Assembly (NCBI RefSeq): GCF_019175385.1
Contig: NC_083344.1
Location: 24,678,231-24,742,230, forward strand
Source of the DNA: Lycium barbarum
Lineage: Eukaryota > Streptophyta > Magnoliopsida > Solanales > Solanaceae
Length of the DNA stretch: 64,000 nucleotides
Direction of reading: 5' to 3'
Position 1 is the first letter of the stretch; every line of letters starts with the position of its first letter. The position numbers were made by a program, and so were the translations under genes. Positions 10,110 to 61,269 of the stretch are shown in pieces. The notes below the pieces were generated by a model. It made no database searches. It worked only from the letters and a program-made list of their open reading frames with translations, and was not told where the DNA came from.

Positions 10110-10225
10110 CAAATCTGCAACTTTTCGTATTTCTTAGACTTCTCATTCTAATCGTCCACATCCATTTGCATGCATTACTAGTCCATTTACTTGCGCTCCA
10201 ACGGGAAATTTTCCGAGGTGTAACA

Positions 10226-13449: not shown

Positions 13450-13499
13450 CTTCCTTGCCTTTAGATAGGAAATAAATCTACCTTTTGGTGATGCCGCAT

Positions 13500-13870
13500 T
13501 CCCTTTCCATTCTAAGACTGGTTCTCCCGGAAACTAGAAACGAACCATCTTCATTCGGCAATCAACATTGGCATAACAAGAAGCCAACCAATCCATGCCC
13601 ATAATAACATCAAAATCTACCATTTCTAGCTCATGCAAATCAATCATGGTATGACGGTCACAAATCGTGACTATACAATCCCTATATACTCGGCTAGCTA
13701 TTACCGATTCACCCACGGGTGTGGACACCTCAAAAGGTTTGATCGACTCCGGCTCGACTATAAATTAACCCGCAATATAAGGAGTAACATATGATAACGT
13801 GGAGCCCGGATCAATCAAAGCATATACATCATGAGAGAATACCGAAAATATACCTGTGACCACGTCAGGA
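13500..13870 (-). pseudogene. Retroviral-type aspartic protease of element A (broken)
   Basis: The active-site motif [12 protein letters not shown] is at about 13805-13840 on the reverse strand, preceded by FSHDVY. After YIAG a TAA at 13765-13767 stops the frame. The flap-to-C-terminal part continues in the same frame ([19 protein letters not shown]) until TAG at 13534-13536, where CAG is expected before FPGEPVLEW. Gag, protease and pol are in one frame, as in most chromoviruses. Confidence 0.85.
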
Positions 13871-15240
13871 GAAGACTCCAGATCTTGGCATCTAGCCAAG
13901 GCATAAATACGGTGCTGAGGGCTGCTAGTACTGGGAGCTCTGCCTCTACCTCTACCATGGCCGACTGGCGCATGTGAAACTGGCCCCGTAGGGCGTACAG
14001 ATGCCGAAGATCCGGCTACCGACCCTGATGGTTGGGTCCTACCTCTACCATGTACTGAGGGGCAATCACGCATAATATGGCCTGGTCGACCACATGAATA
14101 GCAAACATCTGAACCCAATCGGCATTGACCCCAATGCGATTTCCCACACTGGGAACATCGTGGTATAGGTGGCCTTGACTGTCCTAAATCACCTCTAAAC
14201 TGGGACCCCGAATAACTCTGACTCGGCCCGGGATGAGTAGATCTATCAAGGCTCTGGCCTGAAAACTGTGGAGGTGCACTGGTTATAGAATAGCCCGAAT
14301 GTCTAGGGAACTGTTGCCTGTATCCGCCTCTGGACTCACTTACTGGGCCCGAAGATCTGGCCCTCTTGCTATGTCCTCTATCCTGTTCACGTTCACTTCT
14401 CCGTTGCTGTAGGCTTTCCTCTAAGTTCTGAGTATGTGCCTAAATGCGTGTAATATCCATACCGTTCTGAAGGGACGCAGTCAAGCATTTATCCATCAGA
14501 TGGGGCCCTAGGCCCTTTACAAATCGGTATACCCTGTCGCCCATATCTGCTACCATGGCCAAAGCATTCCTAGCCAAAGAGTTAAAACGGAGGCTATACT
14601 CTAGGGCACTCATGCTTTCTTGCCTCAAGTTCAAAAATTTATCGGCCCTAGCCCGCCGAACTTCTGGAGTCATATAATGACGGAGCAAAGCATCAACAAA
14701 CTCTTGCCATACCGGGGGAGGTGCGTTGGCTCCCCGTGAAGCCATCCATACTGTATACCACCAGATCGAGACATCTCTCAATCTATATGACGCTAGTTCC
14801 ACCGACTCGGTGTCTGAAGCATGCATCAATCGTAACGTCCTTAGCATACCATCAATAAATTCCTGAGGATCCTCCTCAGGTTTTGACCCAAAGAATTCCG
14901 GAGGGTTCAAAGTAATGAAATCACGGGCCCTTGCACTAACAGCCCTATCACCATGCCCTGAACTTTGCCTCTGAGCCTGGGCCGCAACCAACTGAGTCAA
15001 CAAATTAATGGCCTCTTTCACATCTTGGCCAGAAGCATTCGGTGGAAGAGCTGGAGGTGCTGGAGCTGGGGCTGAGGCTCCCTCATGCTCCTCAATAATA
15101 GACACTGTCTGGGAGGACTGAAATCGAGCCGCACTCTGGGACACACTTTCATCTACTACCGGTGGCGGTGCTCTTTCAGCCCGCTTTTCTGCCACCGTCT
15201 TGCCCTTTTGGGCTACCGTAGCCTTTTTCTTTTTAGGCAT
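13871..15240 (-). pseudogene. Gag of element A (one nonsense codon)
   Basis: The start is the ATG at 15238-15240, reading MPKKKKATVAQKGK, the same N-terminus style as the intact gag of B. The capsid-like domain follows: FITLNPPEFFGSKPEEDPQE, then SYRLRDVSIWWY, then RRARADKFLNLRQESMSALE. A TAG at 14440-14442 replaces a Gln (CAG in D) in the linker after DITRI. Beyond it the frame stays open to a CCHC knuckle (CYSCGRPGHIMRDC) and a Gly/Arg/Ser-rich stretch. The sequence TATTTCAG ends two bases before the ATG. Confidence 0.88.
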
Positions 15241-15362
15241 CTCTGAAATACACAACGCACGATTAAGGAACAAGAATTTCTTACATCATAGCTCTATCGC
15301 ACGATTCTTATGAAGAAAGAAGGTCATTCATTCCTAAAATGTCCACAACTTCTTGTTTATAA

Positions 15363-15380
15363 GTGTGGCGCGCAACACAC
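15363..15380 (-). promoter_or_regulatory. Leader hairpin with palindromic loop GCGCGC (element A)
   Basis: On the reverse strand: stem GTGTG, loop TT-GCGCGC, stem CACAC. It lies between the primer site and gag. The loop hexamer is self-complementary, so two RNA copies could pair loop to loop. Equivalent hairpins occur in B, C, D and F. Confidence 0.65.
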
Positions 15381-15434
15381 CCATAACCAAGACTCTACTA
15401 GACACGGCTCGTAGACACACCCTAGGACTGAACT

Positions 15435-15446
15435 GCTCTGATACCA
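15435..15446 (-). promoter_or_regulatory. Primer binding site, initiator-Met tRNA (element A)
   Basis: On the reverse strand TGGTATCAGAGC lies four bases downstream of the 5' LTR end (TGACA at 15451). It is complementary to the 3' end of plant initiator tRNA-Met and primes minus-strand synthesis. Confidence 0.92.
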
Positions 15447-15450
15447 CTTT

Positions 15451-22403: not shown

Positions 22404-22440
22404 TTCTTCCCCCCTTTTGGAACATTCGTCCTCGAATGTT
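22404..22440 (-). promoter_or_regulatory. Polypurine tract and preceding inverted repeat (element D)
   Basis: On the reverse strand AACATTCGAGGACGAATGTT (22421-22440) is a perfect 8-bp inverted repeat with an AGGA loop. It is followed by CCAAAAGGGGGGAAGAA and the LTR start. Confidence 0.85.
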
Positions 22441-25229: not shown

Positions 25230-25349
25230 GTTTCTGAAACCATAACGCACTTTTAGGAATGATATAATCCTAAACATGGCTCTATCGCACGATCTCATGA
25301 GAAGAAGAATGGTCATTTTCCTAAATATCCTGTAGCCTCTTGTTTATTA

Positions 25350-25367
25350 GCGTGGCGCGCAACACAC
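25350..25367 (-). promoter_or_regulatory. Leader hairpin with palindromic loop GCGCGC (element D)
   Basis: On the reverse strand: stem GTGTG, loop TT-GCGCGC, stem CACGC, with one G-U pair. Compared with A, the stem has changed but pairing is kept, and the loop is identical. Confidence 0.6.
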
Positions 25368-25419
25368 CATAAACAAAACTCTACTAGACACGGCTCGTAG
25401 ACACTTCCTAGGACGAACT

Positions 25420-25431
25420 TCTCTAATACCA
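25420..25431 (-). promoter_or_regulatory. Primer binding site of element D, decayed
   Basis: On the reverse strand TGGTATTAGAGA lies four bases from the 5' LTR end (25436). It is the initiator-Met site with at least one C-to-T change (TGGTATCAGAGC expected). Confidence 0.75.
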
Positions 25432-25435
25432 CTTC

Positions 25436-33115: not shown

Positions 33116-33248
33116 CCACTTTGCAAGAATGATTCTAAAAATACGTACACACACGAATTAGAAGTCATCCTGAGAGTACTGCTCTAACTGCACGATATAG
33201 AGTATGAAAAAAGTGAGACAATCCTAAATGTCTTGGTGGTCAACTGTT

Positions 33249-33275
33249 TATATGTATGGGGCCCTCACACATATA
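33249..33275 (-). promoter_or_regulatory. Leader hairpin with palindromic loop GGGCCC (element C)
   Basis: On the reverse strand: stem TATATGTGT pairs with ATACATATA (9 pairs, one G-U), with a nine-base loop GA-GGGCCC-C. It lies between primer site and gag, as in A, B and D. The loop layout of two bases, six-base palindrome, one base is the layout known for the HIV-1 dimerisation loop. Confidence 0.65.
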
Positions 33276-33330
33276 AAAGTGACCCCACTGGACATGGTTT
33301 CATAGGATCCATAAAACACTTGAGCCTAGT

Positions 33331-33342
33331 GCTCTGATACTA
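33331..33342 (-). promoter_or_regulatory. Primer binding site of element C (one change)
   Basis: On the reverse strand TAGTATCAGAGC lies close to the LTR end at 33348. It matches the initiator-Met site except G-to-A at the second position. Confidence 0.8.
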
Positions 33343-37492: not shown

Positions 37493-37581
37493 AGTTGGTA
37501 TCAGAGCCCTAGGTTACCCGGTCTATAAGTACATGAGCATGTCTAATAGAGTCTTTCGGATCGGTACGATGAGCTCCGTAC
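37493..37581 (+). promoter_or_regulatory. Primer binding site and leader hairpin (element F)
   Basis: TGGTATCAGAGC at 37496-37507 is the initiator-Met primer site, four bases past the LTR end. At 37564-37581 stem GTACG, loop AT-GAGCTC and stem CGTAC form a hairpin with a self-complementary six-base loop. The layout is the same as in A, B and D but with a fourth palindrome. Confidence 0.75.
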
Positions 37582-38698
37582 TTATCTGCGAAAGGTTATG
37601 AGACATTTAGGAAACTTTCAATTCTTTCTTTCCTTCGTGCTACTTCATTCGAATTGGTATCTAGTCGATTCCAATTGGTATCTGAATGTCTTAATCTTAA
37701 TCACCCACTAACTTAGCAATTTATTAGTGGGTTTTGATCATATAGACTTGAATTGTATATTCCACCTTAGAATTTCCCGTTTCACCCTTATGGGCTCGTT
37801 TCCCCAACTTTCATAGGTTGGATTTGACCTAATTTAGAAGCTTACCAATATTGGTATTATTCTTCATGGTTTCTAATCTAGATTACGCTTATAACTAGAC
37901 ATTCAGTATTTGGAGGTGCTACGAAAGGGCAAGGCAAAGGTGTGGTTGTTCGTGGCTCCTGTTCAGCCTTACAGGTAGGTTACGGCTTACCTTATAGTTA
38001 GACTTCGGTTAGTAAAGCATATGTAGAGTTAGTGATTGTCGGAGACAACATGTTATGCCTTCGGGTATTAAGTTGGGATGGATTCTTAGGTTGGTATTGT
38101 TGTTGACTTTGGCTAGTTTCCTTATTGTGATTTGTTGGTTTGTCGCCACGTGATTGATTCTAGAGTTGATGCTTAATGTTTGCCTTATGATTCGGAGAGC
38201 GTATTTATCATCGTTGAGATCGTAGAAAAGGAAAGTAAAGTTATGATATTGATATTGTGATTGAGATATGTGTCCATGAGTTCCATGATTGATTCTTATA
38301 TTCTTGTTGGCGTTGTTATCATGCATACACTCATTTATACATATATTGGGAATAGATGCTTAGTCATCTTATCATGTTTAAGATATGGCTATCCCTCGTT
38401 TATTGGTATTATCTTAGACATAGGAAAGAACTTGACTTGTTATTGATATCGAGAGATGTGTCCATGTGTGGCACGATTGATTAGATATGTTGTCTTCATT
38501 CATTGATATTATGCAGTTTACTCAATCTCATCTATCATAATACCCTGATATGAATACTTAGTGACTTATTCATGATTGTGAACCCGTATCTCTCACTTAT
38601 TGGTTATTGAATTGTCAAGAGGAAGGAATTGAAATTGGGATATGTGTTCAGGTGTGGCATGGTTGTCATTAATATACTCTTGTTGGCATTGATATCAT
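37582..38698 (+). repeat. Leader remnant and truncated second LTR of element F, first part
   Basis: 37582 to about 37850 shows no recognisable coding sequence and no gag start. From about 37850 the sequence matches the F LTR (35640 onward). The LTR start TGTAACGACCC is missing, so one deletion removed gag-pol and the 5' part of this LTR. The last five bases, ATCAT, are the target duplication of solo LTR H. Confidence 0.6.
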
Positions 38699-45757: not shown

Positions 45758-45850
45758 TGATGTGTCGTTAAATTACGGCACAATTGATGCCTTTTGACGA
45801 GAAGTTTTACTTGTTTTTAAGCAAGTAAGTGTCATTTGGATGTGGTTTTG
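45758..45850 (+). repeat. Right LTR of element G, first part (split by array B)
   Basis: It starts TGATGTGTCGTTAAATTACG and matches 1600-1690. It is interrupted after TTTTG (45846-45850), the target duplication of array B. It continues at 61270. Confidence 0.88.
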
Positions 45851-48800
45851 TGTTACATCCGACATTTTTGTTTATTCGAAAAATTCAAGGTGAATTGACT
45901 TGTGATGAATAAGGCCACAATTGGACCTTACTTTGTATGCATGTTTAGGTTATGAATTCAATGGGGTGGAATTACGAAAGGTGGCCAAGGGCAAAATTGG
46001 AATTTTGGAAACTTTTCCCATGGATTACAATATGTAGCCACCAATTTGGACTCAAAAATAATAAAACAAGGCCCAATAATGGAAGGCCCAACCGGCCATA
46101 GAGTGCTACAAATGGCCCAAATCCATTATTTCATCATGTGACATTATATACTAATGTATATCCTTAGAAACTTCAAGAAAGAGAAAGAACAAGCAAGAGG
46201 AAAAAGAAGAGAGGGCATTTCGGGTGAGAAAGAAAGAAAGAAAAATTGTTGGAGCCTAATCTTGGGTTCAAAAATCTTATTCTTGTGGGAATACTACTAA
46301 GTGCAAAGTCCTCTACAACTTGGTACAATTATTTTGGCAAGAGGACAAGTTTGGTGGCAAGTGAAGAACTTGAGGAAAAGGTGAGAAACAATTCATTTTC
46401 TTATGTTATGGAGTTTGATTTGTGTTGTAGTATGTATAAATGAGAAGAACTTGTAAAAATATGGAAGTTTGCAAGTAGGTGTGTTTGCATTTGTTTGGCC
46501 GTATGCATATATATAGATTGCATGTCTATGGTGACTTGAAACTATGTTGAAATCTAGCTGTAGTGTGGTAGGAATTGTATTAGAAATGAAAGTTGAATGA
46601 ATTAAGGAAAATTGAGAATTTTAAGGTGTGGCCGTGTGGTGTGTGTTGGTGTTGGAAGGTGAATTGAATCTTGTTAGCATGTTAATTGTGTTGTTATGGA
46701 AGATTGGTTATTAAGTTGTTGAAGGAAATTATTTAACTTTGTGATGATTTGTGTATAAGTGAAAATGAAAGTGTTAAGAGGAAAATTATGCTTACGACAA
46801 TGAACTTGGAATATAAAAATGTGTTGATGAGCTTGCATGTTGAAAGTTAGGAAGGGATTGGAAAAGTAGTGACTTGATGGAAAGTTGAATGTTTGTGAAT
46901 TTTATGAATATCTTGTGAATATTATGTGTACATGGTATGGATTCCTCCGATGTGTGTGTCGTAATGATTTTGATGGATAATGGATAGGAAAATAATAAGT
47001 TTTGGTTGGAAATGCAAGTTTAAAACGAAAAATAACTCGTTGTGTCGAAAGATGGCTAATAATGCCATAGTGTATGAATTAGTGTTTATTGATGTTTGCT
47101 GTTGTTTGGATGTTTTCTCTGGGCTGTTGTGTTGAGGAATTGAGCCGAGCTAAGTCTCGGGGATGTCGTATATACAGAGGAAATGCTGCCGAAATTTCGG
47201 TAGGCAATTATGTGTAAAGATAGAGTATTGAAAGAATGAAACTAACCAAATGGTAAACTTGACCATTTCCAGATTTTGGACGAAATTTGGATTGACGCCG
47301 AGCGAGCATAAGGCGCCATCGAGGTATGTGAAGCACTTCTATACGCTCCTAGGCATGTTCTGGATGTGGTAGGCTCGGCCGCGAGCCCTAGGTCCGACTC
47401 CGTTCCCCGGAATTCGAGACGGAAAACCGCTCCAATTCCTTCAATTCAATTGAACCTATTTTCTTACAAATAGCCCTTAAAGTGAGATTTTGTACAAAAC
47501 TTCCCCAAACGGAGTCGGAACACTTCCGAATGAGTATGGGTGACCTCATAAGGTCAATCATCAGTAATTTACGTATGTAGCCTCGGGTTGGTCCGAGGTG
47601 GGCCCACAAGGCCCGATACTTCCGGTACGATTTTTAAAATACTTCTGTTTTGGTCCGATCTTCTCCAAAAACTTCTGAACTATTATTTTGTGAATATTAT
47701 GGATATTTTTGTGTAATTTATACAATATTATTTCTGAACATCCGAGCATCCCATTCTGATAATCTGTCGTGCCTTCCTAACTAGGATATGAGCGCGTGCT
47801 ATGCATACTATCTGGATATTCTGATTTTGGCTCGCCGTTTGGCACCCTTCAGTTTGATCGAGTCTATATGTTGAGTCTGTAGGTAGGTGGTTTCTCATTT
47901 ATCGATTCGTGTCTGTCTCAATGCATTCCTTCACTGCGACCCGGGCCAGGTTCTGTTATCGTGCATATTTCTCTGCATTGTTCACCGCGTCCCTCGGCGT
48001 ACGGGCCGGGATCTGTATGTCTGTATGATCTGTGTATGGGGATGGCGGCCAGGATGGCATATGATCTGATATGATTCTGTCTGTCCACCGCGTCCCGTAC
48101 TAAGAGGGCCGGGTTCTGTTACCGCGCCCCCAGACAGGGCCGGGATCCGTATGAATATATGCGTGTGCCATCTGTATTTATAAAGCACACGCCTTTGTAT
48201 GATTTTGTATGACTCTGTGCTACTCTGCATGCATAATTCTGTCCGTCATACTACTGTCTGTCTGTCCGTCTATGTTACGACTATTTCTGTTTGTCCGTAT
48301 GGCTTCTGCTTCTGTATGTCCGTATGGATTCAGATTCTGCTCGTCTGTCCGTATTATGATTTCGTCTGTCTGTCCGAACTATAATTCTGTCCATTTGTGT
48401 GTAACACGATCCTGTATGTCTGTCTGGATCATAACTCTGTCCGTCAGTTTGACTTATGATTTTGCCCGTTATATTTCTGCGACTCTAGTTCGGACTATGT
48501 TTATATCTGTTACGTTTCTGCTTTACATACTCGGTACATTTTCCGTACTGACCCCCGTTCTTCGGGGGCTGCGCTACATGCCCGCAGGTACAGACGCACC
48601 AGGTGATACGCCGCCCGCGTAGGTTTCCGACTCTGCTACTTGAAGAGCTCCTTTGACTCGGAGCATATATCTTTGGTATATATATCTTCTGTCTTTGTGT
48701 ACTCCGTATGTCTGTATATTCTGGGTACGGCGGGGCCCTGTCCCGTCATATGATTCTGTATGTCTGTAGAGGCCTGTAGATAGATATGTGGGTTACGGGT

Positions 48801-49022
48801 TCCGTCTGTATGTTAGCCCTATCGGCTTATCTGTAAATGTCTGTGTGTTCAGGTATATGTATATATATATATGTATGTTACGCGCACGCCGTATTTGTAT
48901 CGGCCTACTTCTGTACTTCTGTTTTGAAAAAAAAATCTGTATGGTTCGAGTTCGATCAGGTAGGTACGTATGGGTGCCCAGTTAGGGTACCAGTCGCGGC
49001 CCACGGGGTTTGGGTCGTGACA
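45851..49022 (+). repeat. First LTR of array B
   Basis: It starts TGTTACATCCGACATTTTTG and ends GGGTCGTGACA. It differs from the other two by A5 for A6 and a 13-bp shorter GAAA run near 46196-46245, C at 46558 and A at 46782. It has CACCGCGTCCC/GGGCCGGG hairpin repeats at 47936-48150, a CTGTCCGT-rich stretch at 48190-48480, and the core hairpin at 48521-48590. The 137-codon ORF over the CTGTCCGT stretch is low complexity and not credible. Confidence 0.95.
48521..48590 (+). promoter_or_regulatory. Conserved LTR core with CCCCCG/CGGGGG hairpin (array B)
   Basis: CTTTACATACTCGGTACATT is followed by a GTAC...GTAC inverted repeat, then CCCCCG-TTCTT-CGGGGG (48552-48568), then CTACATGCCCGCAGGTA. 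The same core is present in the other B LTRs (offset 6123) and, with compensating stem changes, in H, A, D and E. Confidence 0.55.
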
Positions 49023-49225
49023 AAAGTGGTATCAGAGCGGTTAGTCCTCGGTATGTCTACAGGCCGTGTCTAGTAGAGTCTTGTTTATCGATGTGTTGTG
49101 CACCACATCTATAAACAGGAAGCTACAGGGCATTTAGGATGTTACCCTTCTTTGGATTCTTAGATCGTGCGATAGAACTGTATTAGTAGGATGATCCTCT
49201 CCTAACGATCTGCTATGTTTCAGCG
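49023..49225 (+). promoter_or_regulatory. Leader of B copy 1: primer site and palindromic-loop hairpin
   Basis: Primer site TGGTATCAGAGC at 49027-49038 follows the LTR. At 49090-49109 stem GATGTG, loop TT-GTGCAC and stem CACATC form the leader hairpin, with a six-base self-complementary loop. The leader ends CTATGTTTCAGCG before the gag ATG, which resembles a 3' splice site. Confidence 0.85.
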
Positions 49226-50656
49226 ATGCCTCCGAGGAAGGCAACAGCCGCCCAGAAGGGCAAGGCGAGGATTGAAGCAGGAGAGAATAGCCAGGCCCCG
49301 AGGGTTACCAGGGCCAGTGTACAGCCTGCACTCGAGGATGTGCCCCCGTCGTCTGGGTCTGTTACACCCCCCTCGCGAGAGGATATCAGAGCAGCAGGAG
49401 CTGCTAATCGGGAGACGGCTCCACCGCAAGCTCCTGAGGTTCCAGCGCCCGAGCCTCCAGCTCCACAGGCAGGGGCGGAGGGTGGGGCCATGCGAGATGC
49501 GGTTCAGCTATTGACCACATTAATGGCGGAGCAGGTTCGCAGGCATGGATTTGGGGGCGGTCGTACGGACAGGTATGAGAGCTCCAGGGCTCGCGAGTTT
49601 CTGACATGTGGTCCTCCAGAATTCTCCGGGACCAAGTCTGAGGAAGACCCCCAGGAGTTCATTAGAAAGATGGAGAGCACACTGCGATTGATTAAGGCTT
49701 CGCCGACTGAGTCTGTGGAGTTGGCTTCGTATCGACTGTATGAGGTGGCAGCAAATTGGTATGAGTCTTGGCAGCTCTCCAGGGGTGCCGACGCGCCCGC
49801 AGCGGTATGGGCCGAATTTACTAAGGCCTTTCTTGACCATTTTCTACCACCAGAGCTACGAAGAGCTAGGGTTGATCGGTTCTTGAACTTGAGACAGAAT
49901 GGTAGAAGTGTTTGCGAGTACAGCCTAGAGTTCGACTCACTGGCTAGGTATGCACCCACCATAGTAGCTGAGATGGCCGACAGGGTGCACAGGTATGTGA
50001 TGGGACTGGACTCTTATCTGATTGATGGTTGTTTGGCTGTGGCTGCTCAGCCAGGGATGCATGTAGCCCGGGTACAGGCACACGCCCAGGGCATGGAGGA
50101 CCGACGTAGGGAACGTCGGCCTGATAGGGGTTACGACAGGGGCCAGCCTAAGAGAGCCAGATCGGCTGGGTATTCAGAGGGATTTCAGAGCGAGCCTTCC
50201 CAGCGGCAGAGAAATAGGTATTCGTCCCAGCCAGCCTACAGTACGCCCCCACAGTTCGCAGGACAGAGCTCCAGAGGTCCCGGTCAGTCGAGGCCACCCA
50301 TAACCCCGTGTTCTTACTGTGGGAGGCCCCACCCGGGGGAGTGTTACCGCGCTACGGGCGCTTGTTATTTTTGTGGGAGCCCAGACCATCGAGTCAGAGA
50401 GTGCCCACTTAAGGGCAGTTCGGGTTCAGCCCGGCCTGCTGGGTCCGTTGCAGGCTCATCTTCTCCTTCAGCAGCCATGCGCCCTGCGGGGCGAGGAGCA
50501 CCAGCACCAGCACCAGCGCCAGCGGGTCGTGGCAGAGGACGAGGTGCAGCTTCTGGTTACAGCGGTCCTTCGAACCGCGTGTTTGCTTTAACCGGCCGGC
50601 AGGATCCAGGAGCGTCTTCGAGTGCACGCCCAGGTACGCCAGCCAATCCTTTTTGA
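49226..50656 (+). CDS. gag: Gag polyprotein, B copy 1 (intact)
   Basis: This is the structural protein of the retrotransposon particle, which packages the element RNA. The 476-codon frame starts at MPPRKATAAQKGKA, the N-terminus also seen in D. Order: basic N-terminus; Pro/Ala-rich linker; capsid-type domain at about residues 110-260 (FLTCGPPEFSGTKSEEDPQE, ELASYRLYEVAANWYESW, RRARVDRFLNLRQNGRS); Arg/Gln-rich linker with RRRERRPDRGYDRG; CSYCGRPHPGEC; CCHC knuckle CYFCGSPDHRVREC at about residues 383-396; Ala/Pro/Gly-Arg tail. It ends at RVFALTGRQDPG plus 14 residues, exactly where protease begins in A and D, so pol was lost just past gag. It is the only intact retroelement gene in the window, and the second copy has the same protein. 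Confidence 0.95.
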   Translation: MPPRKATAAQKGKARIEAGENSQAPRVTRASVQPALEDVPPSSGSVTPPSREDIRAAGAANRETAPPQAPEVPAPEPPAPQAGAEGGAMRDAVQLLTTLMAEQVRRHGFGGGRTDRYESSRAREFLTCGPPEFSGTKSEEDPQEFIRKMESTLRLIKASPTESVELASYRLYEVAANWYESWQLSRGADAPAAVWAEFTKAFLDHFLPPELRRARVDRFLNLRQNGRSVCEYSLEFDSLARYAPTIVAEMADRVHRYVMGLDSYLIDGCLAVAAQPGMHVARVQAHAQGMEDRRRERRPDRGYDRGQPKRARSAGYSEGFQSEPSQRQRNRYSSQPAYSTPPQFAGQSSRGPGQSRPPITPCSYCGRPHPGECYRATGACYFCGSPDHRVRECPLKGSSGSARPAGSVAGSSSPSAAMRPAGRGAPAPAPAPAGRGRGRGAASGYSGPSNRVFALTGRQDPGASSSARPGTPANPF

Positions 50657-50887
50657 GAAATGTATGTATGGATAATTTTGTATTTTGTTGAATCACGTGA
50701 TCTCATACTTCTGGGTATTAGAAATAGTAAGATAAATGTTAATTTGGTAGATACCGAGATTCAGAAAGGCAATATGGTAATGGTATGACTTAGCCGGGGG
50801 TGGGACCCGCTACCAAAATTTTTCCGAAAATCTGCGAAGACCCCGATTTACTCTAAAATTTCGTGACAAAGGTCGTGAGGGGCAATC

Positions 50888-51005
50888 GGCGATATTATAT
50901 TAGCCCTAACGCGTCAAAATGCATGAAAGTTTCGGAGTTAAGCGTGCTCAAGCCAGAGCAATTCTGGGATGGGTGACCCCCTGGGAAGTAATGCAAAGTT
51001 TTGCA
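50888..51005 (+). repeat. 5S rRNA-derived module in B, copy 1
   Basis: About 118 bp align end to end with plant 5S rRNA, from GGCGAT to TTTTGCA. The internal promoter regions are best kept: GAGTTAAGCGTGCT (box A region) at 50935-50948, and GGATGGGTGACC plus CCCTGGGAAGT (box C region) at 50967-50990. Between and before them it is diverged, including the intermediate-element area, where CAAGCCAGAGC replaces TTGGGCGAGAG. It is not a functional 5S gene. It could be a captured pol III promoter. Comparable 5S capture is known in Cassandra elements, but there it lies in the LTR. Confidence 0.85.
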
Positions 51006-51359
51006 CAAGTGCAGGTATGACTGATATAAATGAAAATTTGGGGTAATTTAAAGGAAAAGAGAATGTATGGAGTAATTAGCGCCTTTACAGACACCACATA
51101 GTCCGACGCGGATTAAATGGGCAAAAAGCAAAGGGTGCGATACCACTCGGAAAATTTAGCGAATCTGGGTAACAGTCAGCAACGACCCGAATGTTATCAG
51201 GGGATAGAAAACGCCCAATTACATCATAAGTTAGTCTGGTATGGCGATGGTTGTAAAAGGAAAGAGTGTATGGATAGTAGGGAAGAAGAGAGATAAAAAG
51301 GGCAAATAAGAAGAATCTTTGAAAAAGTCAATAAGCGACACCCAAGACGATTTGTATGA

Positions 51360-51604
51360 TTGATTCTGAATACGTTCCTGTCTGACATATCTCTGTACAA
51401 TTAACTCCGATTACGACTCTGTCTGACACACCTCTGTATGTCTGACTCTGGATATAAATCTGTCTGGTGTGCCTCTGTACGCCTAATTTTGATCACGCAT
51501 CTGTCTGATACATCTTCGCATGTCTGATTCTAAGTACGACTCTGTATGATACATTTCTGTAAGTCTGATTCTGATTTCAAATCCGTCCGATATGCTTCTA
51601 CGCG
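51360..51604 (+). repeat. 41-bp minisatellite, six units, B copy 1
   Basis: Six diverged units (five of 41, one of 40 bp) follow the pattern TCTGATTCTGA, then TACGACTCTG, then TCTGATACATCTCTGTATG. Their CTGT/TCTG-rich composition resembles 48190-48480 of the LTR. Confidence 0.85.
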
Positions 51605-51922
51605 TCCGGTTCCAGTCCTGAACCTGTTGGTAAGAAGTGTCTGGTATGAAGTGGGATTATATTGATGTGGTAGAAATCTCCGGAGGGTAACAAGAAATGA
51701 TACGGACTATGACGTCTGGAAAGCGTTTGTCAGTTACAAGAATATAGCTTATGGTTCGGCGATTGCGTGGGGTGCAAGAAGATATATTATGAAGGCATCT
51801 GAATCAATGATGAAAAATTTTCACCCCATAATGATGGTAAAGAAGCCATGTCGGAAAGTCGGTGAAGGACAACCACAAAGAGGACCCTCCCGAAGTAGTA
51901 TGACACCCCATAAAGTCAATTT

Positions 51923-51959
51923 AACATTCGAGGACGAATGTTTCTAAAGGGGGGGAGGA
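51923..51959 (+). promoter_or_regulatory. Inverted repeat and polypurine tract, B copy 1
   Basis: AACATTCGAGGACGAATGTT (51923-51942) is a perfect 8-bp inverted repeat with loop AGGA. AAAGGGGGGGAGGA (51946-51959) is the plus-strand primer, directly against the LTR start at 51960. Confidence 0.9.
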
Positions 51960-54900
51960 TGTTACATCCGACATTTTTGTTTATTCGAAAAATTCAAGGT
52001 GAATTGACTTGTGATGAATAAGGCCACAATTGGACCTTACTTTGTATGCATGTTTAGGTTATGAATTCAATGGGGTGGAATTACGAAAGGTGGCCAAGGG
52101 CAAAATTGGAATTTTGGAAACTTTTCCCATGGATTACAATATGTAGCCACCAATTTGGACTCAAAAATAATAAAACAAGGCCCAATAATGGAAGGCCCAA
52201 CCGGCCATAGAGTGCTACAAATGGCCCAAATCCATTATTTCATCATGTGACATTATATACTAATGTATATCCTTAGAAACTTCAAGAAAGAGAAAGAACA
52301 AGCAAGAGGAAAAAAGAAGAGAGGGCATTTCGGGTGAGAAAGAAAGAAAGAAAGAAAAGAAAGAAAAATTGTTGGAGCCTAATCTTGGGTTCAAAAATCT
52401 TATTCTTGTGGGAATACTACTAAGTGCAAAGTCCTCTACAACTTGGTACAATTATTTTGGCAAGAGGACAAGTTTGGTGGCAAGTGAAGAACTTGAGGAA
52501 AAGGTGAGAAACAATTCATTTTCTTATGTTATGGAGTTTGATTTGTGTTGTAGTATGTATAAATGAGAAGAACTTGTAAAAATATGGAAGTTTGCAAGTA
52601 GGTGTGTTTGCATTTGTTTGGCCGTATGCATATATATAGATTGCATGTCTATGGTGACTTGAAACTATGTTGAAATCTAGTTGTAGTGTGGTAGGAATTG
52701 TATTAGAAATGAAAGTTGAATGAATTAAGGAAAATTGAGAATTTTAAGGTGTGGCCGTGTGGTGTGTGTTGGTGTTGGAAGGTGAATTGAATCTTGTTAG
52801 CATGTTAATTGTGTTGTTATGGAAGATTGGTTATTAAGTTGTTGAAGGAAATTATTTAACTTTGTGATGATTTGTGTATAAGTGAAAATGAAAGTGTTAA
52901 GAGGCAAATTATGCTTACGACAATGAACTTGGAATATAAAAATGTGTTGATGAGCTTGCATGTTGAAAGTTAGGAAGGGATTGGAAAAGTAGTGACTTGA
53001 TGGAAAGTTGAATGTTTGTGAATTTTATGAATATCTTGTGAATATTATGTGTACATGGTATGGATTCCTCCGATGTGTGTGTCGTAATGATTTTGATGGA
53101 TAATGGATAGGAAAATAATAAGTTTTGGTTGGAAATGCAAGTTTAAAACGAAAAATAACTCGTTGTGTCGAAAGATGGCTAATAATGCCATAGTGTATGA
53201 ATTAGTGTTTATTGATGTTTGCTGTTGTTTGGATGTTTTCTCTGGGCTGTTGTGTTGAGGAATTGAGCCGAGCTAAGTCTCGGGGATGTCGTATATACAG
53301 AGGAAATGCTGCCGAAATTTCGGTAGGCAATTATGTGTAAAGATAGAGTATTGAAAGAATGAAACTAACCAAATGGTAAACTTGACCATTTCCAGATTTT
53401 GGACGAAATTTGGATTGACGCCGAGCGAGCATAAGGCGCCATCGAGGTATGTGAAGCACTTCTATACGCTCCTAGGCATGTTCTGGATGTGGTAGGCTCG
53501 GCCGCGAGCCCTAGGTCCGACTCCGTTCCCCGGAATTCGAGACGGAAAACCGCTCCAATTCCTTCAATTCAATTGAACCTATTTTCTTACAAATAGCCCT
53601 TAAAGTGAGATTTTGTACAAAACTTCCCCAAACGGAGTCGGAACACTTCCGAATGAGTATGGGTGACCTCATAAGGTCAATCATCAGTAATTTGCGTATG
53701 TAGCCTCGGGTTGGTCCGAGGTGGGCCCACAAGGCCCGATACTTCCGGTACGATTTTTAAAATACTTCTGTTTTGGTCCGATCTTCTCCAAAAACTTCTG
53801 AACTATTATTTTGTGAATATTATGGATATTTTTGTGTAATTTATACAATATTATTTCTGAACATCCGAGCATCCCATTCTGATAATCTGTCGTGCCTTCC
53901 TAACTAGGATATGAGCGCGTGCTATGCATACTATCTGGATATTCTGATTTTGGCTCGCCGTTTGGCACCCTTCAGTTTGATCGAGTCTATATGTTGAGTC
54001 TGTAGGTAGGTGGTTTCTCATTTATCGATTCGTGTCTGTCTCAATGCATTCCTTCACTGCGACCCGGGCCAGGTTCTGTTATCGTGCATATTTCTCTGCA
54101 TTGTTCACCGCGTCCCTCGGCGTACGGGCCGGGATCTGTATGTCTGTATGATCTGTGTATGGGGATGGCGGCCAGGATGGCATATGATCTGATATGATTC
54201 TGTCTGTCCACCGCGTCCCGTACTAAGAGGGCCGGGTTCTGTTACCGCGCCCCCAGACAGGGCCGGGATCCGTATGAATATATGCGTGTGCCATCTGTAT
54301 TTATAAAGCACACGCCTTTGTATGATTTTGTATGACTCTGTGCTACTCTGCATGCATAATTCTGTCCGTCATACTACTGTCTGTCTGTCCGTCTATGTTA
54401 CGACTATTTCTGTTTGTCCGTATGGCTTCTGCTTCTGTATGTCCGTATGGATTCAGATTCTGCTCGTCTGTCCGTATTATGATTTCGTCTGTCTGTCCGA
54501 ACTATAATTCTGTCCATTTGTGTGTAACACGATCCTGTATGTCTGTCTGGATCATAACTCTGTCCGTCAGTTTGACTTATGATTTTGCCCGTTATATTTC
54601 TGCGACTCTAGTTCGGACTATGTTTATATCTGTTACGTTTCTGCTTTACATACTCGGTACATTTTCCGTACTGACCCCCGTTCTTCGGGGGCTGCGCTAC
54701 ATGCCCGCAGGTACAGACGCACCAGGTGATACGCCGCCCGCGTAGGTTTCCGACTCTGCTACTTGAAGAGCTCCTTTGACTCGGAGCATATATCTTTGGT
54801 ATATATATCTTCTGTCTTTGTGTACTCCGTATGTCTGTATATTCTGGGTACGGCGGGGCCCTGTCCCGTCATATGATTCTGTATGTCTGTAGAGGCCTGT

Positions 54901-55145
54901 AGATAGATATGTGGGTTACGGGTTCCGTCTGTATGTTAGCCCTATCGGCTTATCTGTAAATGTCTGTGTGTTCAGGTATATGTATATATATATATGTATG
55001 TTACGCGCACGCCGTATTTGTATCGGCCTACTTCTGTACTTCTGTTTTGAAAAAAAAATCTGTATGGTTCGAGTTCGATCAGGTAGGTACGTATGGGTGC
55101 CCAGTTAGGGTACCAGTCGCGGCCCACGGGGTTTGGGTCGTGACA
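51960..55145 (+). repeat. Middle LTR of array B (mosaic)
   Basis: It serves as 3' LTR of copy 1 and 5' LTR of copy 2. Its left part matches the third LTR (A6, longer GAAA run, T at 52681, C at 52905). Its right part matches the first LTR (AAATGG at 53371, 12-base TA run near 54983). It has one private change, G at 53694. Confidence 0.93.
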
Positions 55146-55348
55146 AAAGTGGTATCAGAGCGGTTAGTCCTCGGTATGTCTACAGGCCGTGTCTAGTAGA
55201 GTCTTGTTTATCGATGTGTTGTGCACCACATCTATAAACAGGAAGCTACAGGGCATTTAGGATGTTACCCTTCTTTGGATTCTTAGATCGTGCGATAGAA
55301 CTGTATTAGTAGGATGATCCTCTCCTAACGATCTGCTATGTTTCAGCG
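55146..55348 (+). promoter_or_regulatory. Leader of B copy 2: primer site and palindromic-loop hairpin
   Basis: Primer site TGGTATCAGAGC is at 55150-55161 and hairpin GATGTG-TTGTGCAC-CACATC at 55213-55232. I saw no difference from copy 1. Confidence 0.85.
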
Positions 55349-56779
55349 ATGCCTCCGAGGAAGGCAACAGCCGCCCAGAAGGGCAAGGCGAGGATTGAAG
55401 CAGGAGAGAATAGCCAGGCCCCGAGGGTTACCAGGGCCAGTGTACAGCCTGCACTCGAGGATGTGCCCCCGTCGTCTGGGTCTGTTACACCCCCCTCGCG
55501 AGAGGATATCAGAGCAGCAGGAGCTGCTAATCGGGAGACGGCTCCACCGCAAGCTCCTGAGGTTCCAGCGCCCGAGCCTCCAGCTCCACAGGCAGGGGCG
55601 GAGGGTGGGGCCATGCGAGATGCGGTTCAGCTATTGACCACATTAATGGCGGAGCAGGTTCGCAGGCATGGATTTGGGGGCGGTCGTACGGACAGGTATG
55701 AGAGCTCCAGGGCTCGCGAGTTTCTGACATGTGGTCCTCCAGAATTCTCCGGGACCAAGTCTGAGGAAGACCCCCAGGAGTTCATTAGAAAGATGGAGAG
55801 CACACTGCGATTGATTAAGGCTTCGCCGACTGAGTCTGTGGAGTTGGCTTCGTATCGACTGTATGAGGTGGCAGCAAATTGGTATGAGTCTTGGCAGCTC
55901 TCCAGGGGTGCCGACGCGCCCGCAGCGGTATGGGCCGAATTTACTAAGGCCTTTCTTGACCATTTTCTACCACCAGAGCTACGAAGAGCTAGGGTTGATC
56001 GGTTCTTGAACTTGAGACAGAATGGTAGAAGTGTTTGCGAGTACAGCCTAGAGTTCGACTCACTGGCTAGGTATGCACCCACCATAGTAGCTGAGATGGC
56101 CGACAGGGTGCACAGGTATGTGATGGGACTGGACTCTTATCTGATTGATGGTTGTTTGGCTGTGGCTGCTCAGCCAGGGATGCATGTAGCCCGGGTACAG
56201 GCACACGCCCAGGGCATGGAGGACCGACGTAGGGAACGTCGGCCTGATAGGGGTTACGACAGGGGCCAGCCTAAGAGAGCCAGATCGGCTGGGTATTCAG
56301 AGGGATTTCAGAGCGAGCCTTCCCAGCGGCAGAGAAATAGGTATTCGTCCCAGCCAGCCTACAGTACGCCCCCACAGTTCGCAGGACAGAGCTCCAGAGG
56401 TCCCGGTCAGTCGAGGCCACCCATAACCCCGTGTTCTTACTGTGGGAGGCCCCACCCGGGGGAGTGTTACCGCGCTACGGGCGCTTGTTATTTTTGTGGG
56501 AGCCCAGACCATCGAGTCAGAGAGTGCCCACTTAAGGGCAGTTCGGGTTCAGCCCGGCCTGCTGGGTCCGTTGCAGGCTCATCTTCTCCTTCAGCAGCCA
56601 TGCGCCCTGCGGGGCGAGGAGCACCAGCACCAGCACCAGCGCCAGCGGGTCGTGGCAGAGGACGAGGTGCAGCTTCTGGTTACAGCGGTCCTTCGAACCG
56701 CGTGTTTGCTTTAACCGGCCGGCAGGATCCAGGAGCGTCTTCGAGTGCACGCCCAGGTACGCCAGCCAATCCTTTTTGA
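55349..56779 (+). CDS. gag: Gag polyprotein, B copy 2 (intact)
   Basis: It has the same 476-residue product as copy 1: capsid-type domain, CCHC knuckle CYFCGSPDHRVREC, and a C-terminus that stops at the protease boundary. The two copies encode the same protein. The duplication is therefore very young, and no decay has yet occurred in either, unlike all other gag genes here, which carry stops or frameshifts. Confidence 0.95.
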   Translation: MPPRKATAAQKGKARIEAGENSQAPRVTRASVQPALEDVPPSSGSVTPPSREDIRAAGAANRETAPPQAPEVPAPEPPAPQAGAEGGAMRDAVQLLTTLMAEQVRRHGFGGGRTDRYESSRAREFLTCGPPEFSGTKSEEDPQEFIRKMESTLRLIKASPTESVELASYRLYEVAANWYESWQLSRGADAPAAVWAEFTKAFLDHFLPPELRRARVDRFLNLRQNGRSVCEYSLEFDSLARYAPTIVAEMADRVHRYVMGLDSYLIDGCLAVAAQPGMHVARVQAHAQGMEDRRRERRPDRGYDRGQPKRARSAGYSEGFQSEPSQRQRNRYSSQPAYSTPPQFAGQSSRGPGQSRPPITPCSYCGRPHPGECYRATGACYFCGSPDHRVRECPLKGSSGSARPAGSVAGSSSPSAAMRPAGRGAPAPAPAPAGRGRGRGAASGYSGPSNRVFALTGRQDPGASSSARPGTPANPF

Positions 56780-57010
56780 GAAATGTATGTATGGATAATT
56801 TTGTATTTTGTTGAATCACGTGATCTCATACTTCTGGGTATTAGAAATAGTAAGATAAATGTTAATTTGGTAGATACCGAGATTCAGAAAGGCAATATGG
56901 TAATGGTATGACTTAGCCGGGGGTGGGACCCGCTACCAAAATTTTTCCGAAAATCTGCGAAGACCCCGATTTACTCTAAAATTTCGTGACAAAGGTCGTG
57001 AGGGGCAATC

Positions 57011-57128
57011 GGCGATATTATATTAGCCCTAACGCGTCAAAATGCATGAAAGTTTCGGAGTTAAGCGTGCTCAAGCCAGAGCAATTCTGGGATGGGTGAC
57101 CCCCTGGGAAGTAATGCAAAGTTTTGCA
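57011..57128 (+). repeat. 5S rRNA-derived module in B, copy 2
   Basis: Same as the module at 50888, offset 6123. Box A and box C regions are equally preserved. Confidence 0.85.
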
Positions 57129-57482
57129 CAAGTGCAGGTATGACTGATATAAATGAAAATTTGGGGTAATTTAAAGGAAAAGAGAATGTATGGAGTAATT
57201 AGCGCCTTTACAGACACCACATAGTCCGACGCGGATTAAATGGGCAAAAAGCAAAGGGTGCGATACCACTCGGAAAATTTAGCGAATCTGGGTAACAGTC
57301 AGCAACGACCCGAATGTTATCAGGGGATAGAAAACGCCCAATTACATCATAAGTTAGTCTGGTATGGCGATGGTTGTAAAAGGAAAGAGTGTATGGATAG
57401 TAGGGAAGAAGAGAGATAAAAAGGGCAAATAAGAAGAATCTTTGAAAAAGTCAATAAGCGACACCCAAGACGATTTGTATGA

Positions 57483-57727
57483 TTGATTCTGAATACGTTC
57501 CTGTCTGACATATCTCTGTACAATTAACTCCGATTACGACTCTGTCTGACACACCTCTGTATGTCTGACTCTGGATATAAATCTGTCTGGTGTGCCTCTG
57601 TACGCCTAATTTTGATCACGCATCTGTCTGATACATCTTCGCATGTCTGATTCTAAGTACGACTCTGTATGATACATTTCTGTAAGTCTGATTCTGATTT
57701 CAAATCCGTCCGATATGCTTCTACGCG
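57483..57727 (+). repeat. 41-bp minisatellite, six units, B copy 2
   Basis: Same units as at 51360-51604. Confidence 0.85.
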
Positions 57728-58082
57728 TCCGGTTCCAGTCCTGAACCTGTTGGTAAGAAGTGTCTGGTATGAAGTGGGATTATATTGATGTGGTAGAAAT
57801 CTCCGGAGGGTAACAAGAAATGATACGGACTATGACGTCTGGAAAGCGTTTGTCAGTTACAAGAATATAGCTTATGGTTCGGCGATTGCGTGGGGTGCAA
57901 GAAGATATATTATGAAGGCATCTGAATCAATGATGAAAAATTTTCACCCCATAATGATGGTAAAGAAGCCATGTCGGAAAGTCGGTGAAGGACAACCACA
58001 AAGAGGACCCTCCCGAAGTAGTATGACACCCCATAAAGTCAATTTAACATTCGAGGACGAATGTTTCTAAAGGGGGGGAGGA

Positions 58083-61000
58083 TGTTACATCCGACATTTT
58101 TGTTTATTCGAAAAATTCAAGGTGAATTGACTTGTGATGAATAAGGCCACAATTGGACCTTACTTTGTATGCATGTTTAGGTTATGAATTCAATGGGGTG
58201 GAATTACGAAAGGTGGCCAAGGGCAAAATTGGAATTTTGGAAACTTTTCCCATGGATTACAATATGTAGCCACCAATTTGGACTCAAAAATAATAAAACA
58301 AGGCCCAATAATGGAAGGCCCAACCGGCCATAGAGTGCTACAAATGGCCCAAATCCATTATTTCATCATGTGACATTATATACTAATGTATATCCTTAGA
58401 AACTTCAAGAAAGAGAAAGAACAAGCAAGAGGAAAAAAGAAGAGAGGGCATTTCGGGTGAGAAAGAAAGAAAGAAAGAAAAGAAAGAAAAATTGTTGGAG
58501 CCTAATCTTGGGTTCAAAAATCTTATTCTTGTGGGAATACTACTAAGTGCAAAGTCCTCTACAACTTGGTACAATTATTTTGGCAAGAGGACAAGTTTGG
58601 TGGCAAGTGAAGAACTTGAGGAAAAGGTGAGAAACAATTCATTTTCTTATGTTATGGAGTTTGATTTGTGTTGTAGTATGTATAAATGAGAAGAACTTGT
58701 AAAAATATGGAAGTTTGCAAGTAGGTGTGTTTGCATTTGTTTGGCCGTATGCATATATATAGATTGCATGTCTATGGTGACTTGAAACTATGTTGAAATC
58801 TAGTTGTAGTGTGGTAGGAATTGTATTAGAAATGAAAGTTGAATGAATTAAGGAAAATTGAGAATTTTAAGGTGTGGCCGTGTGGTGTGTGTTGGTGTTG
58901 GAAGGTGAATTGAATCTTGTTAGCATGTTAATTGTGTTGTTATGGAAGATTGGTTATTAAGTTGTTGAAGGAAATTATTTAACTTTGTGATGATTTGTGT
59001 ATAAGTGAAAATGAAAGTGTTAAGAGGCAAATTATGCTTACGACAATGAACTTGGAATATAAAAATGTGTTGATGAGCTTGCATGTTGAAAGTTAGGAAG
59101 GGATTGGAAAAGTAGTGACTTGATGGAAAGTTGAATGTTTGTGAATTTTATGAATATCTTGTGAATATTATGTGTACATGGTATGGATTCCTCCGATGTG
59201 TGTGTCGTAATGATTTTGATGGATAATGGATAGGAAAATAATAAGTTTTGGTTGGAAATGCAAGTTTAAAACGAAAAATAACTCGTTGTGTCGAAAGATG
59301 GCTAATAATGCCATAGTGTATGAATTAGTGTTTATTGATGTTTGCTGTTGTTTGGATGTTTTCTCTGGGCTGTTGTGTTGAGGAATTGAGCCGAGCTAAG
59401 TCTCGGGGATGTCGTATATACAGAGGAAATGCTGCCGAAATTTCGGTAGGCAATTATGTGTAAAGATAGAGTATTGAAAGAATGAAACTAACCAATGGTA
59501 AACTTGACCATTTCCAGATTTTGGACGAAATTTGGATTGACGCCGAGCGAGCATAAGGCGCCATCGAGGTATGTGAAGCACTTCTATACGCTCCTAGGCA
59601 TGTTCTGGATGTGGTAGGCTCGGCCGCGAGCCCTAGGTCCGACTCCGTTCCCCGGAATTCGAGACGGAAAACCGCTCCAATTCCTTCAATTCAATTGAAC
59701 CTATTTTCTTACAAATAGCCCTTAAAGTGAGATTTTGTACAAAACTTCCCCAAACGGAGTCGGAACACTTCCGAATGAGTATGGGTGACCTCATAAGGTC
59801 AATCATCAGTAATTTACGTATGTAGCCTCGGGTTGGTCCGAGGTGGGCCCACAAGGCCCGATACTTCCGGTACGATTTTTAAAATACTTCTGTTTTGGTC
59901 CGATCTTCTCCAAAAACTTCTGAACTATTATTTTGTGAATATTATGGATATTTTTGTGTAATTTATACAATATTATTTCTGAACATCCGAGCATCCCATT
60001 CTGATAATCTGTCGTGCCTTCCTAACTAGGATATGAGCGCGTGCTATGCATACTATCTGGATATTCTGATTTTGGCTCGCCGTTTGGCACCCTTCAGTTT
60101 GATCGAGTCTATATGTTGAGTCTGTAGGTAGGTGGTTTCTCATTTATCGATTCGTGTCTGTCTCAATGCATTCCTTCACTGCGACCCGGGCCAGGTTCTG
60201 TTATCGTGCATATTTCTCTGCATTGTTCACCGCGTCCCTCGGCGTACGGGCCGGGATCTGTATGTCTGTATGATCTGTGTATGGGGATGGCGGCCAGGAT
60301 GGCATATGATCTGATATGATTCTGTCTGTCCACCGCGTCCCGTACTAAGAGGGCCGGGTTCTGTTACCGCGCCCCCAGACAGGGCCGGGATCCGTATGAA
60401 TATATGCGTGTGCCATCTGTATTTATAAAGCACACGCCTTTGTATGATTTTGTATGACTCTGTGCTACTCTGCATGCATAATTCTGTCCGTCATACTACT
60501 GTCTGTCTGTCCGTCTATGTTACGACTATTTCTGTTTGTCCGTATGGCTTCTGCTTCTGTATGTCCGTATGGATTCAGATTCTGCTCGTCTGTCCGTATT
60601 ATGATTTCGTCTGTCTGTCCGAACTATAATTCTGTCCATTTGTGTGTAACACGATCCTGTATGTCTGTCTGGATCATAACTCTGTCCGTCAGTTTGACTT
60701 ATGATTTTGCCCGTTATATTTCTGCGACTCTAGTTCGGACTATGTTTATATCTGTTACGTTTCTGCTTTACATACTCGGTACATTTTCCGTACTGACCCC
60801 CGTTCTTCGGGGGCTGCGCTACATGCCCGCAGGTACAGACGCACCAGGTGATACGCCGCCCGCGTAGGTTTCCGACTCTGCTACTTGAAGAGCTCCTTTG
60901 ACTCGGAGCATATATCTTTGGTATATATATCTTCTGTCTTTGTGTACTCCGTATGTCTGTATATTCTGGGTACGGCGGGGCCCTGTCCCGTCATATGATT

Positions 61001-61269
61001 CTGTATGTCTGTAGAGGCCTGTAGATAGATATGTGGGTTACGGGTTCCGTCTGTATGTTAGCCCTATCGGCTTATCTGTAAATGTCTGTGTGTTCAGGTA
61101 TATGTATATATATATATATGTATGTTACGCGCACGCCGTATTTGTATCGGCCTACTTCTGTACTTCTGTTTTGAAAAAAAAATCTGTATGGTTCGAGTTC
61201 GATCAGGTAGGTACGTATGGGTGCCCAGTTAGGGTACCAGTCGCGGCCCACGGGGTTTGGGTCGTGACA
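58083..61269 (+). repeat. Third LTR of array B
   Basis: It ends GGGTCGTGACA at 61269, followed by the TTTTG duplication. Private features are the loss of one A in the AAATGG run near 59493 and two extra bases in the TA run near 61104-61120. Confidence 0.95.

Follow-up and report, generated by a model that had tools for sequence, protein, structure and literature searches.

A conserved leader hairpin with a self-complementary apical loop in Ty3/gypsy retrotransposons of Lycium barbarum, a probable kissing-loop dimerisation signal

The leaders of chromovirus-like Ty3/gypsy retrotransposons in Lycium barbarum are predicted to form a long hairpin with a self-complementary hexamer in its apical loop of 7-8 nt. 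The hairpin is conserved between families and its stem covaries. The loop is exposed in predicted folds, and the hexamer changes in a compensatory manner and stays self-complementary. Judged from sequence and structure models, intermolecular loop-loop pairing at a dimerisation initiation site is very likely the best explanation. The elements have sequence features expected of a dimerisation site of the retroviral type: a leader hairpin near the primer binding site (PBS), a self-complementary exposed loop and self-complementarity kept under change. A kissing-loop dimerisation signal had been proposed in a preliminary description of this DNA, and the long conserved hairpin, the loop exposure in the predicted folds and the compensatory loop changes argue for it.

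Retrotransposons of the window

The window, the whole stretch of 64,000 nt that was analysed, consists largely of nested Ty3/gypsy LTR retrotransposons (Table 1). The superfamily was judged on element A, which has the order gag, RT-RNase H, integrase and an iMet primer site. Its gag, RT, RNase H and SH3_Tf2-1 domains scored above the cut-off, the integrase core slightly below, and a Chromo match reached 20.1 bits (cut-off 25.1 bits). Gag, RT and integrase-end domains are present in elements A and C, and a protease domain was detected in D and C. The elements are possibly Tekay-like chromoviruses. The LTRs of A and D are about 75% identical where alignable. Within the 3.0-kb interior of D (22404-25435), the RT frame continues into the LTR; the leader hairpin is nonetheless intact.

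The tandem B array is enclosed as a whole by a single 5-bp target duplication, and its units are 99.4-99.8% identical by self-comparison. The best named protein matches of the B gag are from Solanaceae, with Lycium barbarum first. A tblastn search with the A and D proteins detected no RT in B, which is thus gag-only; two later frames of at least 80 amino acids had no Pfam match. Element F gave no tblastn match to the A and D proteins, and its five frames of at least 80 amino acids had no significant Pfam domain. The F interior is partly duplicated upstream of the F 5′ LTR (35649-36303 versus 37896-38695, 73-88% identity); the covariance model found no hairpin in the upstream copy. Another repeat is present in two copies of 87-90% identity, 1552-2945 and 45710-45853 plus 61270-62499, the second being split by the B array. 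The sequence preceding this second copy resembles the end of a Tat/Ogre-type element.

Table 1. Coordinates of retrotransposon features in the window and, in the last row, of a related subfamily in the genome
Element	Feature	Position	Strand	Remarks
A	LTRs	about 8,242-10,225 and 15,449-17,775		self-comparison of window
A	RT + RNase H frame	12127..13533	-	
A	gag frame	14440..15285	-	
A	leader hairpin	15334..15405	-	loop TTGCGCGC 15368-15375, hexamer 15368-15373; 76.1 bits
A	tRNA-iMet PBS TGGTATCAGAGC	15435..15446	-	exact
D	LTRs	20,008-22,403 and 25,436-27,818		inserted into LTR of element C; CAAAA on both sides
D	leader hairpin	25321..25391	-	loop TTGCGCGC 25355-25362, hexamer 25355-25360; 86.5 bits
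D	PBS	25420..25431	-	2 mismatches
C	leader hairpin	33224..33295	-	loop AGGGCCC 33259-33265, hexamer 33259-33264; 69.3 bits
C	PBS	33331..33342	-	1 mismatch
F	PBS	37496..37507	+	exact
F	leader hairpin	37539..37610	+	loop ATGAGCTC 37569-37576, hexamer 37571-37576; 83.7 bits; no coding domain found in element
B	tandem array LTR-interior-LTR-interior-LTR	45851..61269	+	TTTTG on both sides
B copy 1	PBS	49027..49038	+	exact
B copy 1	leader hairpin	49066..49137	+	loop TTGTGCAC 49096-49103, hexamer 49098-49103; 92 bits
B copy 1	gag frame from first in-frame ATG	49226..50656	+	Retrotrans_gag, CCHC zinc knuckle
B copy 2	PBS	55150..55161	+	exact
B copy 2	leader hairpin	55189..55260	+	identical to copy 1; loop 55219-55226
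GTTAACTA subfamily	four genomic rows	C1:26397465, C5:138430360, C6:47445712, C8:92206763		four different apical loops; one hexamer palindrome (TGGCCA)

Leader hairpin

A PBS search of the window with up to two mismatches gave 11 matches, where chance alone would give 4.7. Element primer sites account for six (four exact, C with one mismatch, D with two), and each of these is followed by the hairpin. The remaining five comprise four inside the gag reading frames of B and an isolated one at 63628. Measured from the first PBS base, the hairpin starts at 39-47 nt and the loop at 69-77 nt in all five families. The 231-nt leaders of B copies 1 and 2 are identical and were therefore counted once. All six hairpins lie where the preliminary description had placed them and read as given there, letter by letter; the stem, which it had put at 5-9 bp, is about 26 bp long. 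A covariance model built from the five window families (A, B, C, D and F) recovered the six leaders, and its other matches in the window were their own reverse strands or had E values of at least 0.4. Rfam gave no match in the window at the gathering score.

Unguided RNAalifold folding of the five leaders yielded a hairpin of 26 pairs. Nine of these have changed on both sides, a number reached in none of 500 shuffles; slid stems had at most three such pairs. The stem cells are paired to 90%, versus 39-56% when slid, and none of 500 shuffles reached 90%. The covariation score was equalled by none of 500 shuffles and the number of pair types by 4 of 500. With bulges put aside by hand, 127 of 128 stem cells pair, a figure fitted to the structure. 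The minimum free energy (MFE) folds range from -22.5 to -31.5 kcal/mol (z -2.2 to -5.3). In those of B, D, F and C, the basal TGTC is paired, and so are the TAG, the six apical base pairs and the mid stem; the MFE fold of A deviates at the hairpin base.

The leaders of A and D are 83.9% identical (205 bp), versus 72.8% for the coding DNA (2,613 bp). A and B share 80.5% in the leader (190 bp) and only 46% in the gag proteins. The hairpin is retained in B, which lacks pol, and in F, in which no coding domain was found. A leader that is better conserved than coding DNA and is retained in such elements is as expected for a cis signal that an element needs in order to use the proteins of another.

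The leader has other features. A block that by eye resembles a 3′ splice site precedes gag in B (49200-49226, CCTAAC...TTTCAG) and A (15243-15260, CCTTAAT...TTTCAG), and the same branch-point-like and pyrimidine-AG block occurs in D (25234-25250, CCTAAAA...TTTCAG) and C (33135-33150, TTCTAATT...TTTTTAG). A conserved splice donor for it was not seen. If used, the site could allow splicing to strip the hairpin from gag mRNA and keep it in genomic RNA. Located 3′ of the hairpin, the 10-mer ATCGTGCGAT is identical in B (49164-49173), A (15296-15305) and D (25284-25293); C has ATCGTGCAGT. As RNA, ATCGTGCGAT is self-complementary if two central U-G wobbles are allowed, and it is a possible second contact. 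A, D and F have a second palindrome near the PBS, CCTAGG, which begins at base 21, 20 and 13, respectively, counted from the PBS start; B and C lack it.

Apical loop

The apical loops are UUGCGCGC (A and D), UUGUGCAC (B), AUGAGCUC (F) and AGGGCCC (C). One or two nucleotides and a palindromic hexamer make up the 7-8 nt, and the palindrome is present in all six window copies: GCGCGC in A and D, GTGCAC in B, GGGCCC in C and GAGCTC in F. In predicted folds with contexts of 150 to 550 nt, the hexamer has a mean unpaired probability of 0.83-0.99, and the apical stem pairs form with a probability of 0.82-1.0.

The background set comprised 348 apical loops of 7-9 nt from the window, each on a stem of 5 bp or more. 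A palindromic hexamer is present in 21 of them. Ten of the 21 are the leaders or their reverse strands, which leaves a background of 11/338, and only one of these 11 has four or more G/C. The distinct leader loops are palindromic in 4/4 cases (Fisher p=2.4e-6 against the background). The hexamer columns of the window pair in 15/15 cells; this was equalled in 10/500 shuffles, close to the lowest value that five rows, one state being repeated, allow.

Positions 2 and 5 of the hexamer had been described as covarying through four base pairs. All four states are seen, but A and D share a loop, so the five elements are not five independent cases. Hexamer positions 2 and 5 enclose only two nucleotides and cannot form an intramolecular pair; their coupling therefore points to pairing between molecules. 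The outer G/C and the central GC, described as constant, are so within the window, but not genome-wide: the further palindromes GCCGGC, GCATGC, GGCGCC, GACGTC and AAGCTT reveal that self-complementarity is kept and not a fixed set of G and C.

Genome-wide survey

The 13-mer GTGGTATCAGAGC occurs 38,926 times in the 1.67-Gb host genome (19,421 + 19,505; reversed control 29). The PBS followed after 80-110 nt by CATTTAGGA, the 3′ end of the hairpin, was found at 18,383 sites (9,166 + 9,217; reversed control 0). All of the first 100 exact 13-mer PBS sites on contig 1 (171,831,605 bp) were taken as a sample. The exact 13-mer is the A/B-type PBS, so C- and F-type leaders with their other primer sites are excluded from it. 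The model, trained on the window only, detected a full sense hairpin at 72 of the 100 sites (E ≤9.3e-15). It found none at the other 28, which comprise 16 leader clusters, one of them (L014) with a broken hairpin. The hexamer is palindromic in 64 of the 72 (GTGCAC 35, GCGCGC 28, GCCGGC 1); the others have GTACAC (2), ACGCGC (2), GCACAC, ACGCAC, GTGAAC and GCGCTC (1 each). Among the matches listed for the PBS with CATTTAGGA, 57 more loci were analysed. A hairpin is present in 56, 46 of these being palindromic; the remaining locus (L143) had no match at 1e-10 and was dropped. Together with the five window families, the enlarged set has 133 rows (72 + 56 + 5), 116 of them palindromic.

In a 56-row, sense-only alignment, which was fitted to the model and whose related rows may beat shuffles without structure, the stem is paired in 96.9% of cells versus 37-57% when slid, and neither this value nor the covariation score was reached in 500 shuffles. 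The five two-sided pairs were matched in 7/500. The hexamer is paired in 95.2% of cells, with 0/500 shuffles as high; slides gave 3-93%, the high one being the -2 slide (92.7%, two pairs counted). In a mixed-strand alignment of 115 model matches, the stem was not above shuffles (500/500 as high on paired cells and covariation score). This alignment was left out of the pair statistics because 43 rows are reverse-strand matches.

Scans of viral contigs for outside relatives gave no plant element, and at the 13 viral-contig loci (L001-L013) no such leader was seen by eye in the sequence after the match or in the fold. Scans of other genome contigs and PLSDB for relatives found nothing.

Coupled change in the loop

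A tree was built from 77 leaders after excision of the loop. Position 2 of the hexamer changes five times and position 5 eight times. With consistent ties, each of the five position-2 changes falls on a branch on which position 5 also changes; with inconsistent ties, four of the five do so. A Pagel-type likelihood ratio test, in our own implementation and with some rates at the bound, favours dependence (77 rows: LR 16.4, p=0.0025; 133 rows: LR 35.7, p=3.4e-7). Parsimony on 133 rows placed only 2/9 (inconsistent ties) or 3/9 (consistent ties) position-2 changes on a shared branch, perhaps because deep forks are unresolved. The strict independent-pairs test had only two pairs, on starred branches (median p 0.5). 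Recombination of leaders is possible and would distort the tree. The covariation of the two positions is thus supported by the Pagel-type test and more weakly by the stricter ones.

Loop decay and switching

The other families were searched with CATGTC, 45-72 nt and AGACATTTAGGA, a pattern that preselects the stem foot and leaves the loop unconstrained. It matched 124 times in the genome (73 + 51; control 0). The matches listed (100 of 124) included 99 distinct ones. One of these (h056) is a chance match without hairpin, which leaves 98 rows. After reassignment of row h028 (GTGCAC), which the rule had placed in the F group, to A/B, the rows divide into 52 F-type, 24 A/B-type and 22 C-type. The following counts apply to these listed matches. 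F-type loops are palindromic in 28/52 (GAGCTC 26, AAGCTT 1, GACGTC 1) and the remainder mostly one substitution off. A/B-type loops include GTGCAC (18) and GCATGC (2). C-type loops are palindromic in 13/22 (GGGCCC 11, two of them shifted versus the alignment; GGCGCC 1; TGGCCA 1, shifted), or 10/22 in the aligned columns only. Overall, 61/98 are palindromic, 58 of them at aligned columns. The old F- and C-type copies have decayed: once inserted, an element does not retain the loop. The F-type loss fits neutral decay of dead copies (11% per site). In a C-related subfamily with GTTAACTA in the 3′ arm, three of the four listed copies have no palindrome, which counts against universality.

The switches between palindromes do not fit neutral decay. 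Pairs of complementary transversions (GCCGGC, GGCGCC, GACGTC) were observed three times versus 0.07 expected (p=6.5e-5), and complementary transition pairs in three copies versus 0.81 (p=0.049); the expectations rest on assumed groups and an assumed transition share, made after the palindrome types had been seen. The intact count of 128 rows entered as 110 and is correctly 109 (GCCGGC had been included), which hardly alters the expectation.

Mechanism and alternative explanations

Two element RNAs would meet via their loops in a 6-bp kissing complex, which may convert to an extended duplex. In cells, loop pairing would start the dimerisation of two genomic RNAs, and the dimer would help the RNAs to be packaged into virus-like particles and reverse-transcribed. 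A caution comes from the title of a 2020 paper, 'Rous Sarcoma Virus Genomic RNA Dimerization Capability In Vitro Is Not a Prerequisite for Viral Infectivity' (PMC7291142).

The hairpin might be kept for another role, as a Gag-binding packaging signal or in translation control or RNA export, with palindromes inherited from one ancestor and no intermolecular pairing. Leaders of this kind typically have a packaging role, and the stem of about 26 bp is conserved irrespective of the loop. GTGCAC or GCGCGC occupies 112 of the 133 sampled leaders (exact A/B-type PBS sample), so most palindromes would be inherited. Inherited palindromes should, however, decay to single mutants and not jump from one palindrome to another. 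Nine types of palindrome occupy this place in the loop alignment, positions 2 and 5 change jointly, and the double complementary transversions far exceed their expectation. We regard this explanation as unlikely.

Very improbable is a second one, by which GTGCAC is a CpG-decayed GCGCGC and the covariation at positions 2 and 5 is false. In its favour, the two changes are CpG transitions, transposons of plants are methylated, and GTGCGC, the intermediate, is present with 258 copies genome-wide in one 19-nt context. The intermediates are rare in the sample, however (TA 68, TG 0, CA 5, CG 56 in 129 scorable rows), and 157 fetched loci in the 19-nt context hold GCGCGC 14 times and GTGCGC never. GGGCCC, GAGCTC, GCCGGC, GGCGCC and GACGTC require transversions. 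CpG decay could account for part of the T-A versus C-G difference.

A palindrome acting in the DNA, as protein-binding site or cruciform and with no RNA signal, is the least credible reading and was set aside: palindromic hexamers are typical of DNA-binding sites, but here the sequence changes yet self-complementarity stays, the hexamer tops a hairpin in which G-U pairs and compensatory changes occur, and for B the RNA model is strand-biased (35 bits for the reverse strand versus 92 bits). A reading of the hairpin as an artefact was also set aside.

Partner choice

The preliminary description suggested that the variable pair could limit dimerisation to members of one family. In silico, the best loop duplexes have -7.9 to -12.9 kcal/mol with self and -2.0 to -4.1 across families. 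The exception is A or D with B, at -7.1 kcal/mol in a shifted register (B self -7.9). Cofolding of whole hairpins gained -10.7 to -20.5 with self, -11.1 for A with D, and -7.8 and -7.2 for A and D with B. The gain was 0 for F with any other and -1.8 to -2.5 for C with A, D and B. In these models F and C look isolated in pairing, and A, D and B do not. The family restriction is weakly supported: F and C barely pair with others in silico, but A and D share GCGCGC, both can cross-pair with B in the models, and two loops serve most of the sampled leaders. The common loop of A and D and the genome sample weaken the idea of one loop per family. The modelled energies lend slight support to family-specific partner choice as a hypothesis.

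A further idea, which we consider rather doubtful, is that the hexamer serves as a tag for mate recognition and evolves as such. Lineages within one genome would then fall into groups able or unable to pair their RNAs, and a two-sided base-pair switch would found a new group. Candidate pairing groups are GTGCAC, GCGCGC, GGGCCC and GAGCTC, plus GCCGGC, GCATGC and others.

Comparison with known systems

The palindrome of the HIV-1 dimerisation initiation site (DIS) has purines on both sides. Natural HIV-1 DIS diversity is limited mainly to GCGCGC, GUGCAC and GUGCGC, and the central G-C pairs are critical, as stated in the available text (PMC5874298). GCGCGC and GTGCAC, named earlier as HIV-1 loops, are thus two of the three prevalent ones. 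HIV-1 SL1 is likewise a leader hairpin with a GC-rich 6-nt palindrome in the apical loop, and both sequences are common to virus and plant. The predicted plant loop has one or two unpaired 5′ nucleotides and none at the 3′ side, unlike the purine-flanked HIV-1 palindrome (PMC5874298); the stem is also longer (about 26 bp), and the host is a plant.

Yeast Ty3 belongs to the same superfamily. Its DS/PAL6 site has a palindromic hexamer apical in a short hairpin near the RNA 5′ end and is proposed to start kissing-loop dimerisation (PMC11381356). In contrast to the plant hairpin between PBS and gag, this site is part of the GAG frame (CUGCAG, nt 391-396, number six of the six palindromes listed); the hairpin is another one, and the available part of the paper reports no multi-family loop diversity (PMC11381356). 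The RNA dimerisation of the LTR retrotransposon Ty1 of yeast is also proposed to begin by loop-loop pairing (SL1a/SL3a), but Ty1 is a Ty1/copia element and uses two different complementary 7-nt loops and no single palindrome, according to the accessible text (PMC5454406). In barley, signals for dimerisation and packaging are described as conserved in the parasitic BARE2; BARE1/BARE2 are plant LTR retrotransposons as well, but of the copia superfamily, and the accessible portion of the paper gives no structure or covariation (PMC3735527). A review on LTR elements of plants published in 2025 uses no word starting with 'dimer' in its main text (PMC12786077). No paper on this hairpin in plant Ty3/gypsy elements was found in the literature covered, to which most subscription journals do not belong and which was partly accessible. 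A search by sequence string returned unrelated papers only.

Significance

As far as the searches show, the pairing and choice of genomic RNAs by plant LTR retrotransposons are hardly known. The leader hairpin very probably represents a kissing-loop signal in a host group for which none was found described, with unusually many natural loop variants. A hairpin of 72 nt with several natural loops in one genome is a ready set of compensatory variants. Short RNAs would make it possible to test dimerisation, the cross-pairing of autonomous with non-autonomous families, and recombination between families. GCGCGC and GTGCAC, main loops of HIV-1, are used again here, which suggests that kissing loops of plant and animal retroelements follow common physical rules. 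If the loop were a mate-recognition tag, it would shape co-packaging and recombination between autonomous and non-autonomous families.
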